Shown here in pieces: positions 34,011 through 62,262 of a stretch of DNA of 64,000 nt. Origin of the DNA: Acetobacteraceae bacterium. GTDB taxonomy: Bacteria; Pseudomonadota; Alphaproteobacteria; Acetobacterales; Acetobacteraceae. Positions within the stretch are counted from its first letter, which is position 1. Each line of letters starts with the position of its first letter. A program made the position numbers and the translations under genes. The stretch is taken from contig JAIYDD010000270.1 in NCBI GenBank assembly GCA_027487675.1, positions 1 to 64,000 on the forward strand. The letters are read 5' to 3'. The notes below the pieces were generated by a model that saw only the letters and a program-made list of their open reading frames with translations, was not told where the DNA came from and did no database searches.

Positions 34011-34214
34011 CCCACTAGCCTCCCTCTGCCTTGGCGGAGCGCCGGCCCCCGCGCGCTGCCGTCGCGGCGGGGGGGCGGCCGGCTCTGCGCCGGGGTGACG
34101 CGGGGAGATCGCGCGGGGGGTGGGGTTCGTTCCCGCGGAAAACGCGTGCGGGGTGCGATGCGGGCGTGCGGGCGGGCAGCGGGGCGTTCGTCCGGCGATG
34201 CCACCCCGCCGCGG

Positions 34215-34243
34215 CCCTCTCCCCCCGTCGGGGAGGGAGAGGG
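34215..34243 (-). terminator. C/G-rich hairpin after the second RND operon
   Basis: CCCTCTCCC (34215-34223) pairs with GGGAGAGGG (34235-34243), just past the RND stop codon. It belongs to the same palindrome family as 54993-55018, 55091-55117 and 62239-62262. It may terminate the TetR-MFP-RND transcript. The rest of 34011-34254 has no gene. Confidence 0.5.
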
Positions 34244-34254
34244 CGGGCGCGGGT

Positions 34255-54973: not shown

Positions 54974-54992
54974 TGGCGGGCGGCGCGCTTCT

Positions 54993-55117
54993 CCCTCTCC
55001 CGCCTGGGCGGGAGAGGGTCGGGGTGAGGGTGGGGCGCGCCGCGCGTGGCCGGACGGCGTGCGCGCATCCGGGAAGCCCGCCTCACCCCGCCCTCTCCCT
55101 CCGTCGGGGGGAGAGGG
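54993..55117. repeat. Double C/G-rich palindrome between binding-protein and permease genes
   Basis: CCCTCTCCCGCC (54993-55004) and GGCGGGAGAGGG (55007-55018) form a perfect 12-bp stem with a 2-nt loop. A second stem, CCCTCTCC/GGAGAGGG (55091-55098, 55110-55117), and outer arms GGGGTGAGG/CCTCACCCC enclose the stretch. No gene is present. Related stems occur at 34215 and 62239. The 3' arm supplies the G-rich ribosome-binding site of the next gene. It may protect the upstream mRNA or lower permease expression. Confidence 0.7.
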
Positions 55118-55133
55118 GGAAGGGGGCGGCGCC

Positions 55134-56981: not shown

Positions 56982-58898
56982 TCAGGCCTTCGCCGCCACC
57001 GCGTCCAGCAGCGCCGCCTGCAGGTCGAGCGGCCGCACCGGCTTCGGCACCACGCCGGCCAGCCCCGCGCGCCGGAAGCGCGCCTGGTCTTCCGCCGCGG
57101 CGCTGCCGGAATAGGCCAGCACGGGCACGCCGCCGTTGGGGTCGGGCAGGGCGCGGATGCGGCGCAGCGTGGCCTCCGCGCCCGCCTCGCCCATCTCCAT
57201 GTCGAGCAGCACCGCGTCGAAGCGGCCCTCCCGCAGCGCGGCCAGCGCGGCCTCCGCGTCGCCCACCGCCACGACCTCATGGCCCAGGCGGCGCAGGAAG
57301 GTGGCGGTGGCGCTGCGCATGGCGGGGATCTCCTCGGCCACCAGCACGCGCAGGCTGGCGGGCGGGGCCTCGGCATTGGCGGGGACCGGCAGGGGCAGCT
57401 CGAACCAGAACAGGCTGCCCTGGCCGAGCTGGCTCTCGAAGCCGATCTCGCCCCCCATCAGCCGCACCAGCTGGCGGGAGATGGCAAGCCCCAGCCCGGC
57501 CCCGCCATGGCGCCGCCGCAGCGAGGCATCCACCTGGGTGAAGCGCTCGAACAGCCGCGGGAAGGCCTCCGGCGCGATGCCGACGCCGCTGTCGCGCACC
57601 TCCACGCGCAGCCGCCCGCCCTCGGCGCCCGCGATCCAGCGCGCGGCGATGGCGACCTCGCCGCGCTCGGTGAACTTCAGCGCGTTGCCCGCCAGGTTGA
57701 GCAGCACCTGCGCCACCCGGGTGCGGTCGGCGACCACCTGCGCCGGCAGGCCGGGCGCCAGCTCGACCCGCCAGCCGAGGCCGCGCCGCGCCGCGTCGGC
57801 CGCCAGCGGCGCCAGCGGCAGGGCGAGCAGCGCGCGGGTCTCGACCGGCTGCGGGCGCAGCTCCAGCCCGCCTTCCTCCAGCCGGGAGAAATCCAGGATG
57901 TCGTTGATCAGCGCCAGCAGCAGCCGGCCGGAATCGACGATCACCTCCACCGCCTCGCGGTCGGCCGGGGTCAGGTCGCTGTCGCGCAGCACCTGCGCCA
58001 TGCCGATGATGCCGTTGAGCGGCGTGCGCACCTCGTGGCTCATGTTCGCCAGGAACTGGCCCTTGGCGCGGGTGCCGGCCTCGGCGCGGTCCTTCGCCTC
58101 GCGCAGCTGCACCTCGCGCAGCATCGCCTGCTCGACCAGCGCGCGCTGCGTCGCCTCGCTGGCGGCCAGCGCCCGCAGCCGGCCTTCCAGCGTCTCGGCC
58201 ATGTCGAGGAAGGCGGCGGTGAGGCGGGAGATGTCGGCATCGCGCGGTCGCCCGGCCTCGCGGTCCGGCAGCTCCGCGCGGATCGCGATCGCCTCCTCGT
58301 AGCTGCCGTCGCGCAGCGCATCGACGGCGCGTTCCAGCCTCCGCAGCGGGCGGAACAGCAGGCGGGAGCCGATCTCCACCAGCGGCACGGCCAGGACCAG
58401 CGAGATCAGCGCGGCGGCGAGCCCGAGCATCAGCAGCTGGCGATGCGCGCTCTCCACCGGTTCGCAGGACAGGCCGAACAGCACGGCGCCGAGCGGCTGG
58501 CCGGCGAGTTCCAGCGGCACGCGGCCGAGCAGCCTTTCCTCGCCGCTGCGCATGCGCATGCGCGGCACGTCGGCATGCGGCGGCCCGTCGATGGCGGCCC
58601 AGCCGACCGACAGCACCGGCTCCCCGCGCGGATCGAGCAGCACCAGATGGGCGAAGCTGCCGGATTCCACGCTCTCCCGCAGCACGGCCTCCAGGGTCGC
58701 GAAGTCGCGCTCCGCCACGGCGCCGGTCAGCGCCGCCTGCAGGATCGGCTTGGCGGCCAACGCCTGCGACTGCAGCTGCGCGCCGAGCGCGCGCAGCATC
58801 ATGCGGTCGAACATCGTCGTCAGCCCGCCCGCCACCAGCACCAGCGCGCTGGCGGCCAGCGCGATGAGCTTCAGGCGGAGGGTCAGGCGGCGGAACAT
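56982..58898 (-). CDS. Hybrid sensor histidine kinase with receiver domain
   Basis: This 638-residue protein has two membrane segments (about 8-28 and 155-175) around a periplasmic domain of about 125 residues, then HAMP and a coiled coil. HisKA follows (FLANMSHEVRTPLNGIIGMA, phospho-His in MSHEV), then HATPase (NLAGNALKFTE, DSGVGIAPEAFPRLF, GAGLGLAISRQL) and a C-terminal receiver with phospho-Asp in AVLLDMEMGEAG and Lys in VPKPVRP. The usual acidic pair of the receiver is Glu-Glu. No output protein is adjacent. A PhnD-like periplasmic protein encoded 106 bp upstream on the same strand may be its ligand-binding partner. Confidence 0.9.
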   Translation of the reverse strand: MFRRLTLRLKLIALAASALVLVAGGLTTMFDRMMLRALGAQLQSQALAAKPILQAALTGAVAERDFATLEAVLRESVESGSFAHLVLLDPRGEPVLSVGWAAIDGPPHADVPRMRMRSGEERLLGRVPLELAGQPLGAVLFGLSCEPVESAHRQLLMLGLAAALISLVLAVPLVEIGSRLLFRPLRRLERAVDALRDGSYEEAIAIRAELPDREAGRPRDADISRLTAAFLDMAETLEGRLRALAASEATQRALVEQAMLREVQLREAKDRAEAGTRAKGQFLANMSHEVRTPLNGIIGMAQVLRDSDLTPADREAVEVIVDSGRLLLALINDILDFSRLEEGGLELRPQPVETRALLALPLAPLAADAARRGLGWRVELAPGLPAQVVADRTRVAQVLLNLAGNALKFTERGEVAIAARWIAGAEGGRLRVEVRDSGVGIAPEAFPRLFERFTQVDASLRRRHGGAGLGLAISRQLVRLMGGEIGFESQLGQGSLFWFELPLPVPANAEAPPASLRVLVAEEIPAMRSATATFLRRLGHEVVAVGDAEAALAALREGRFDAVLLDMEMGEAGAEATLRRIRALPDPNGGVPVLAYSGSAAAEDQARFRRAGLAGVVPKPVRPLDLQAALLDAVAAKA

Positions 58899-59004
58899 GC
58901 GTGGGCTCGGCCTCGGCGCCCCGGGACGAAGCCGCCGCGCCGGGCCAGGCTGGGCGGGGCCCCGGAAGGTCGGGCGGCGGGGCAGGGCATGGCGGCGCGC
59001 CTCC

Positions 59005-59856
59005 TCAGCCGGCGCGCAGGAGCTGGCGGGTTTCCTCGACGACGGGGTCGAGCTCCGCCAGCTCGTCCGGGCGCACCGCGCGGATGTCGCGGAAGCCGGT
59101 GGCGGCGAAGAACTGGCGCCCGGGCTCGCTGGCGGGGAAGCGCAGCAGCGCGGCGCGGATCGCCGCGCCCTCCGCCGGCGGGACATGGGCGCCGAGCAGC
59201 ACCAGGAAGCCCGGCACCTGCTCGAACTCCCGCCACACCAGCAGCGTGTCGCGGATGTCCTGGCGGATCGCGTTCAGCTCGCCGCGGCTCATCACCGCGA
59301 GCGGCGTGTCCGGCCCGGTCAGCAGCTGCGCAAGGCTGTCCTCGTTGCGCGCATGCAGCGGCGTCACGTCCCGGCCGACCTCCAGCCCGGTCTCCCGCCG
59401 CAGCCAATGGGTGAAGCGCAGCGCGACCAGGGATTGCGGGTTGGTCATCGCCACCTGGCGGCCGCGCAGCGCCGCGGCCGACGCCAGCGGGCGGTCGCGG
59501 TGGCAGATCAGCAGGCCGGGGATGCGCGGCTCGTAGATCGCGATCGGGGCGAGGCCGGCATCCAGCTGCCCGACGCGGCCGAGATTGGCGGCGGTGACCA
59601 TGATGTCATAGGCGCCGGTGACGCTGCGCTCATGGAAGGGGCGCAGGCCGGGCGCCGTCACGATCTCCACGCCCCGGCTGAGCTCCTGCTCCAGGAAGCT
59701 GCGGAAGGGCTGGTACTGGCCGATCAGGATGCGCGCGCTGACATTCGGCAGGACGCCGAACTGCAGGGGGGCGGGTTGCGCAAGGCTGCGCCCCGGCGCT
59801 GCCAGCGCGCCGAGCGCGGCCGCCGCGACGGCGCGGCGTGGAAGGCGAGGGGCCAA
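59005..59856 (-). CDS. PhnD-like periplasmic binding protein (phosphate/phosphonate family)
   Basis: This 283-residue protein has a signal peptide (RRAVAAAALGALAAPGRSLA) and the PhnD/SsuA-like pattern QFGVLPNVSARILIGQYQPF, GAYDIMVTAANLGRV, LRGRQVAMTNPQSLVALRF. I place the start at TTG 59856 because AGGAGG lies about eight bases upstream and no ATG precedes the signal peptide. No ABC permease or ATPase is nearby. Being encoded directly upstream of a hybrid kinase, it is more likely a sensory partner (as TorT is to TorS) than a transport receptor. Confidence 0.78.
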   Translation of the reverse strand: MAPRLPRRAVAAAALGALAAPGRSLAQPAPLQFGVLPNVSARILIGQYQPFRSFLEQELSRGVEIVTAPGLRPFHERSVTGAYDIMVTAANLGRVGQLDAGLAPIAIYEPRIPGLLICHRDRPLASAAALRGRQVAMTNPQSLVALRFTHWLRRETGLEVGRDVTPLHARNEDSLAQLLTGPDTPLAVMSRGELNAIRQDIRDTLLVWREFEQVPGFLVLLGAHVPPAEGAAIRAALLRFPASEPGRQFFAATGFRDIRAVRPDELAELDPVVEETRQLLRAG

Positions 59857-60019
59857 GGCAGGTTCCTCCTGGCGCTCAAACTTTTGAAGCTTGTGACACG
59901 AATTGGTTCGGCGCGCAGCATTCCACGACGTTGCTTCCGTGTCGCCTGTGTCGGTGGGCAGGCGCGCGGCCGCGCGCGGGCTTGATGCGGCCCCCCGGCG
60001 GGGCGATCTGAGGGGCATC

Positions 60020-62207: not shown

Positions 62208-62238
62208 CGGGGCTCGGCGCCCCGGACCCCCACCCCGA

Positions 62239-62262
62239 CCCTCCCCCGCAGGCGGGGGAGGG
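62239..62262. repeat. C/G-rich palindrome after telA
   Basis: CCCTCCCCCGC/GCGGGGGAGGG is a perfect 11-bp stem with a 2-nt loop, flanked on the left by CACCCCGA. It matches the palindromes at 54993-55018 and 34215-34243. It may end the telA transcript. Confidence 0.6.

Follow-up and report, generated by a model that had tools for sequence, protein, structure and literature searches.

Why does a gene for a PhnD-like periplasmic protein lie directly upstream of a hybrid histidine kinase gene, with neither a transporter nor an output regulator at its side? This question is raised by positions 56,982 to 59,856 of a 64,000-nucleotide stretch of DNA (contig JAIYDD010000270.1, assembly GCA_027487675.1, from an Acetobacteraceae bacterium), which is referred to below as the window. 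We consider it very likely that the products of the two genes form a single bipartite receptor of the AioX–AioS, XAC2383–XAC2382, and LuxP–LuxQ design. What we observed is the identity of the genes, their adjacency, their joint inheritance and behavior as a cassette, the exchange of outputs in relatives, and, by alignment, altered positions in the binding pocket. The suggestion of the original prediction that these genes form a sensing pair rather than part of a transporter is upheld, because the adjacency is conserved, the cassette is shared, and the binding protein and the sensor region of the kinase co-vary. The features of the pair are as follows.

59005..59856, minus strand: binding-protein gene (PhnD superfamily, periplasmic, putative sensory subunit), 283 amino acids, TTG start, PF12974 at E = 1.2e-25
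59779..59856, minus strand: predicted signal peptide, residues 1–26 (ending ...SLAQ, followed by PAPLQ), proposed from the sequence
59865..59870, minus strand: AGGAGG, resembling a ribosome-binding site in sequence, eight bases before the TTG of the binding-protein gene
56982..58898, minus strand: hybrid histidine kinase gene (putative receptor and output), ATG at 58898, with HisKA, HATPase_c, and Response_reg
58425..58817, minus strand: predicted periplasmic sensor domain of the kinase, residues 28–158, Cache/PAS-like, flanked by two membrane helices (profile PERI and model)
57870..58067, minus strand: HisKA dimerization/phosphoacceptor domain, residues 278–343 (Pfam scan)
57387..57728, minus strand: HATPase_c domain, residues 391–504 (Pfam scan)
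57009..57347, minus strand: atypical receiver domain, residues 518–630 (PF00072, E = 4e-15; acid pair E522/E523)

The binding-protein gene lies directly upstream of the 638-codon kinase gene on the same (minus) strand, with an intergenic gap of 106 nucleotides. The arrangement is as originally described: the coordinates are exact, and PF12974 (Phosphonate-bd) in the one protein and HisKA, HATPase_c, and Response_reg in the other exceed their cut-offs. The pair is flanked by a convergent oligopeptide permease gene (OppC/DppC type) and by a divergent xpaC–telA unit, the TelA of which matches PF05816 (E = 2.8e-98). Among the neighboring genes scanned, no PhnC, PhnE, response regulator, or molybdoenzyme gene adjoins the pair, which agrees with the earlier description of a pair lacking a transporter and an output regulator.

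Binding-protein profiles (A1 and A3) were searched against 385 genomes of the class, 398 of the phylum, and 274 of the class of genome G880, giving matches in eight class genomes, own genome included (E ≤ 1e-20), 22 phylum genomes (1e-12), and 47 genomes of the class of G880 (1e-18). In a sample of 299 family genomes, the own genome alone matched at E ≤ 1e-20, a number that cannot serve as a family frequency since four further carriers (G004, G006, G012, and G013) exist in the same genus. From the matches we assembled 63 loci: eight from named genomes, five from the class, 10 of 34 places in the phylum, and 40 regions, mostly the best-scoring ones, chosen for 67 listed places in the class of G880. 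Of the remaining matches of the class search, one is locus L023 again and one lies at a contig edge. The named genomes comprise Falsiroseomonas, Roseomonas ponticola, Roseococcus, and metagenome-assembled relatives, and at all eight of their loci (50–69% identical) the kinase gene lies directly downstream.

At 57 of the 63 loci, the next gene downstream on the same strand encodes a receptor whose sensor region resembles that of the window kinase, mostly after a gap of −4 to 37 nucleotides (more negative values reflect over-extended starts of open reading frames, ORFs). Two further loci bring the partnered total to 59: L122 has the two genes in the opposite order, and L152 has its sensor region starting at residue 354 of an ORF that overlaps the binding-protein gene with its first part (residues 52–349), so that the region directly follows here as well. 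At E ≤ 1e-3, the profile of the periplasmic domain alone (PERI) matched 43 of the 57 partners; leaving aside the 12 from which it was built, it matched 31 of 45. Beyond these partners its single match among 2315 ORFs, overlapping frames included, was the partner in L122, and a sensor profile including membrane helices and HAMP gave one match outside the partners, a second ORF in L152. In none of the scanned members does the sensor domain score above a Pfam cut-off.

The same sensor region is attached to different outputs, which were labeled from profile matches and reading (L124, L156, and the partnerless loci remain unlabeled). These outputs include HisKA kinases with or without receivers, HisKA_3-type kinases adjoined by a NarL-type regulator gene (L134 by Pfam; L132, L137, L141, and L150 by likeness), kinases beside sigma-54 regulators (L086, L145, L157, and L159), and GGDEF or GGDEF-EAL proteins, which profile matches place at 18 loci (with Pfam confirmation for L081 and L122). 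PERI itself matches GGDEF receptors, namely those of L081 (1.6e-23), L120, L126, and L122. In a quickly built tree of 65 binding proteins, without PhnDtr_C100 and L146 (which has two binding domains), the label switches between kinase and GGDEF at least 11 times, and the window falls in a supported (97) branch of 13 rows of kinase-type pairs from its own class. Distances between binding proteins correlate with distances between sensor regions (Mantel r = 0.83 over 59 loci, where 2000 permutations gave at most 0.15; L146 and L048 omitted, L050 included), and the correlation is 0.62 over pairs with different outputs only. By these sequence comparisons, antenna and sensor appear to travel together across output swaps, which does not imply physical contact. 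A separate observation concerns L146:4197-5852, where two binding-protein domains lie in tandem within one open frame ahead of the receptor gene.

Could the binding protein instead be an orphan subunit of an ATP-binding cassette (ABC) transporter encoded elsewhere, with the kinase as a chance neighbor? Its domain, PF12974, is that of a transporter family; PhnC/PhnE-like genes occur elsewhere in the genome; and a plasmid search, which found no close copy of the binding protein, returned nine records (best identity 32.7%), some of them annotated as ABC transporter substrate-binding proteins. However, two other PhnD-type proteins (L025 and L026) already sit with those transporter genes, in what by eye are runs of ATPase, binding-protein, and permease genes. 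The window protein also stays far under both PhnD NCBIfam cut-offs (19.2 of 261.1 bits for TIGR03431; 22.4 of 112.05 bits for TIGR01098). With these scores, the adjacency at 59 of 63 loci, and gain or loss of the pair as one cassette, as described next, the orphan-subunit explanation is very improbable, and we rejected it.

Within the genus, a close copy of the pair is present in five of 15 genomes: the own genome, G004, G006, G012, and G013, the last four being treated as loci L021, L018, L017, and L019, respectively, on account of identical match ranges and identities of their binding proteins. Eight of the 10 pair-less genomes of the genus were inspected (G005 and G014 were left out), and in all eight, dppC and xpaC–telA are neighbors, 0.2–0.9 kb apart. 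Neither gene of the pair was matched in the 12 kb around these eight empty sites; in one of them, L189, a 212-amino acid ORF is predicted in the dppC–xpaC gap. The two genes form an optional cassette that comes and goes as a whole, in an otherwise constant neighborhood. Some variation occurs at the edge of this neighborhood: at L019:8774-9648, genes for an ArsR-type regulator and an AHSA1-domain protein separate the kinase gene from dppC, and inspection by eye shows a similar AHSA1 frame in L017 and L021 and not in the window.

These comparisons also bear on whether tellurite or some other toxic anion is what the pair detects on behalf of the neighboring TelA genes, a reading linked to the TelA hint in the original prediction. 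The divergent xpaC–telA unit does adjoin the pair in all five genus genomes that hold it. Nevertheless, TelA is found in 15 of 15 genus genomes against five of 15 for the pair, and pair-less sites keep the dppC–xpaC–telA order. At the Roseococcus-type loci L020, L022, and L024 the neighbor of the pair, as judged by eye, is a GtrA-like gene, and the stretches around the pair in L020, L022–L024, and L044–L047 showed no telA. As the pair lies elsewhere in Roseococcus, TelA is a bystander. A partnership with TelA is extremely improbable; the presence of TelA without the pair, and of the pair without telA, led us to reject it and to drop the earlier hint.

What, then, might the antenna bind? The AlphaFold model of the binding protein has a mean predicted local distance difference test score (pLDDT) of 87.2 and a predicted template modeling score (pTM) of 0.81, with residues 1–24 below a pLDDT of 50. 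In VIA-align comparisons it resembles the structures of PtxB, PhnD, ArrX, XAC2383, and AioX, with Z-scores of 22.5–25.6 across 241–255 residues, in the order PtxB (25.6), PhnD1 (24.9), and ArrX (24.1), XAC2383 scoring 23.1. The top Foldseek match is ArrX (E = 1.9e-16), and because the ranks of ArrX and PtxB differ between the two programs, fold rank was not used for naming a ligand.

An excerpt of PMC5908839 gives Tyr88, Tyr131, Ser161, Ser163, and His192 (AioX numbering) as common to the AioX and PhnD pockets, and Cys106 of AioX as an arsenite ligand. In our comparison, which is an alignment and not a structural superposition, the window protein has L71, I112, S142, V144, and E172 at the five pocket columns, so that the first serine alone is kept, and A89 at the Cys106 column. 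The canonical Y, Y, S, S, and H are present in L050, in the transporter protein of L088, and in the own-genome PhnD on contig C57, and L050 also has the cysteine. Across the 13 members of the window clade, column 1 (Tyr88) is Leu or Phe, column 2 (Tyr131) is Ile (Phe in L047), column 4 (Ser163) is Val (Leu in L045), column 5 (His192) is Glu, Asp (L023 and L044), or Ala (L047), and the Cys106 column is Ala (Thr in L047). The sampled cousins L081, L120, and L132 keep the histidine and have lost the tyrosines and serines, and the pocket of the window branch, with its first serine kept and its histidine lost, appears to have changed in a different way. As aligned, the pocket of the window protein is probably neither AioX-like nor PhnD-like.

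This bears directly on the possibility that the pair senses arsenic as a member of the AioX/ArxX/ArrX family, which shares its design. ArrX, besides leading the Foldseek matches, is the best sequence match among solved structures, at a nonsignificant E = 0.08. Against this, alanine replaces Cys106, and other residues stand in place of both tyrosines, the second serine, and the histidine; no AioX chain appears among the sequence matches to solved structures up to E = 1; no XSR operon surrounds the pair; and PtxB and PhnD1 outrank ArrX in the second structural comparison. In addition, the genome carries a separate AioX ortholog at L050 (contig C172:56000-66857), the binding protein of which matches NT-26 AioX at 2e-84 and has the WICGYPF cysteine. 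Its gene is followed by kinase and sigma-54 regulator genes, with a divergent ACR3 gene (393 bits; cut-off 283) and, behind the AioX-type genes, a SorT/SoxC-like molybdoenzyme that scores below its cut-off. PERI does not match the kinase partner of this ortholog. On the tree, L050 groups with two transporter PhnDs, apart from the 62 rows that include the window (support 99), although its own row has only 183 residues and a long branch. The genome has a true AioX-type system at L050, and the window pair is something else. The arsenic-sensor reading is highly improbable, and was rejected on the pocket columns, the replaced Cys106, and the missing XSR operon.

The same positions suggest that arsenite is a very unlikely ligand and that phosphonate, phosphite, phosphate, or arsenate is probably not the ligand either. 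Of the oxyanion idea in the original prediction, phosphonate, phosphite, and arsenate lose support with four of the five coordinating positions replaced, and the ligand could be an oxyanion of another kind. Alternatively, the binding protein might have no small ligand and instead keep the kinase off or on as its constitutive partner, the signal being the abundance of the protein or the state of the envelope. In favor of such a partner, most canonical anion-coordinating residues are gone, yet the stretches that carried them are strongly conserved. However, NPQS and RN(E/D)DS are retained in 12 of the 13 clade members, which suggests a specific ligand over a dead cleft, and we regard the ligand-free partner as improbable.

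Gene neighborhoods provide a further lead. Sulfur-related genes occur in the flanks of nine of the 63 loci: SoxB-like neighbors in L134, L137, L141, L145, and L150, YeeE/TsuA-like with TusA-like neighbors in L150, L157, and L159, and cysD–cysN directly upstream of the pair in two distant relatives, L023 (cysD–cysNC) and L089. Only L023 of these nine belongs to the window's branch. A NarL-type or sigma-54 regulator is linked in L134, L137, L141, L145, L150, L157, and L159. The SoxB-like proteins, scanned in two loci, reached 183 and 156 bits against a cut-off of 550 and could be other members of the 5′-nucleotidase family; the YeeE/TsuA-like proteins are also below their cut-off, and the TusA-like ones, named by reading of the sequence, have no NCBIfam match at 1e-10. 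The sulfur-gene queries were chosen after the neighbors had been seen, and a neighbor-count control of the eight empty-site loci and the window, not matched for lineage, gave no sulfur-gene matches. No SoxB above the cut-off is found in the own genome, which therefore gives the sulfur reading no support. An excerpt of PMC5408782 describes TtrS as having a PhnD-like sensing domain said to bind tetrathionate. A sulfur oxyanion or other sulfur compound is our first-placed guess for the ligand, a weak one that is rather unlikely to be right.

The kinase has a phosphoacceptor histidine (H288) and a receiver aspartate (D566); HAMP falls below its Pfam cut-off, and the periplasmic part gives a weak match to LapD_MoxY_N. 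Hydrophobic peaks place the membrane helices near residues 5–30 and 153–178. The model of the sensor region (pLDDT 76.9, pTM 0.50) shows a long helix and five strands between the two membrane helices, with pLDDT values of 82–91 in ten-residue blocks of 31–100 and 121–140 and of 65–75 between them. Its fold matches include WalK (Z = 11.5), CdgS9, a LapD ortholog (10.7), LuxQ (10.1; root-mean-square deviation 3.1 over 122 residues), DctB (9.8), and CitA (9.3); just two Foldseek matches reach E ≤ 0.001. As modeled, the sensor domain appears to be Cache-like.

The receiver is atypical in having E522–E523 as its acid pair, and in the close orthologs L017, L018, L019, and L021 the E is followed by P, T, or A. 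It is missing in four of the 13 clade kinases (L020, L022, L024, and L044), and the L047 kinase has a receiver plus a histidine phosphotransfer (Hpt) domain. Since those four kinases lack it, the receiver is not a defining part of the pair; it seems dispensable in the family and may be decaying. As to the partner phosphotransfer protein that the original prediction advised searching for, the own genome has six Hpt matches, two of them in short open frames on contigs C223 (184 amino acids) and C56 (126 amino acids) that could be free phosphotransfer proteins; a linked regulator was not found in the window clade.

In the mechanism we propose, a soluble PhnD-fold protein would be exported to the periplasm, where its bound or empty state would be read by docking onto the Cache-like sensor domain of the kinase. 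The membrane helices would relay the change to the HisKA/HATPase core, and phosphate would pass from the kinase to an unlinked regulator, directly or via the receiver and a free-standing Hpt protein. Several points count against a bipartite receptor of this kind. Four of the 63 loci have no partner: L088, a transporter member, is flanked by PhnC- and PhnE-like genes; in L121 and L123 the next gene is of the LysR type; and L151 has nothing. PERI misses 14 of the 57 partners, and 21 of the 62 inner forks of the tree, built by a quick method, are unsupported. Joint inheritance alone would also give the distance correlation, which for this reason shows that antenna and sensor travel together, not that they touch. 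The window clade has no response regulator linked to the pair. Finally, the models are of single chains, and we infer export, docking, the ligand, the direction of its effect, and the downstream partner.

A broader reading would see a large superfamily of two-gene receptors, so far recognized only loosely, that reads mainly sulfur oxyanions or related sulfur compounds and in which evolution freely plugs one antenna–sensor block into kinases or cyclic di-GMP enzymes, with an alphaproteobacterial branch of changed specificity in which the anion-binding histidine has turned acidic; we hold this to be unlikely. Recognition of the pair as a receptor has practical consequences. PF12974 proteins are routinely named phosphonate transporter subunits, as in the plasmid relatives, and here 59 of 63 adjoin a receptor gene instead. 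Orphan kinases and diguanylate cyclases become testable, as the antenna can be purified and screened directly for its ligand; the swapped outputs are ready-made designs for chimeras; and the sulfur genes near several relatives provide a concrete panel of ligands.

Elsewhere, the window contains several copies of short, GC-rich palindromes resembling REP repeats (CCCTCTCCC..GGGAGAGGG), at 54977-55130, 62212-62262, and 34214-34247.

Among known systems, TorT–TorS of Escherichia coli, the sensing type to which the original prediction had likened the pair, likewise combines a binding protein with a hybrid kinase. TorT lies outside the PhnD family, and the sensor domain of TorS is helical. The window kinase scores 343.3 of the 676.5 bits of the TorS family cut-off (TIGR02956), over residues 266–634 only, which is the catalytic part, and TorS is not among the listed fold matches of the Cache-like sensor model, a listing that excludes nothing. 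With the cut-off missed, the match confined to the catalytic part, and a Cache-like sensor model, kinship with TorT–TorS was abandoned. LuxP–LuxQ of Vibrio is closer in design, in that a hybrid kinase reads a soluble binding protein through a periplasmic domain that is Cache-like, as is proposed here. LuxP, which senses autoinducer-2 (AI-2), belongs to another class of binding proteins, and the likeness to the window pair lies in the design and the fold of the LuxQ sensor, not in any evident sequence kinship. In TtrS and ThsS, which an excerpt of PMC5408782 links to the sulfur oxyanions tetrathionate and thiosulfate, a PhnD-like domain is likewise the periplasmic sensor of a kinase; there, however, it is described as fused to the kinase, whereas here it is a separate protein.

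The nearest designs are those with a separate PhnD-fold protein. XAC2383–XAC2382 of Xanthomonas citri (PDB 5ub3-5ub7) is likewise described as a two-gene PhnD-fold protein and membrane receptor. GGDEF receptors pair with relatives of the window protein; the window output, unlike that of XAC2382, is a histidine kinase and not a diguanylate cyclase, the design being common to both. Our family profile matches the XAC2383 sequence weakly (8.4e-7), with no stretch passing alone. A 2018 study of this system by Teixeira is said to discuss related operons, and our literature search does not establish the present receptor family as undescribed. AioX–AioS is a known pair of this design, and in AioX–AioS–AioR and ArrX/ArxX, according to an excerpt of PMC5908839, a PhnD-fold periplasmic protein is likewise encoded beside a membrane histidine kinase and serves sensing and not transport. 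The model of the window protein resembles the solved structures of ArrX and AioX. Unlike these systems, the window pair lacks an operon regulator, an arsenic enzyme, and the arsenite cysteine, and its pocket positions differ. AioX/ArrX is ruled out for the window pair by pocket and operon, a PhnD transporter by context and score, and TorT–TorS by score. We read the pair as a kinase-type member of the known bipartite PhnD-fold design, one whose pocket has changed and whose output is an orphan.

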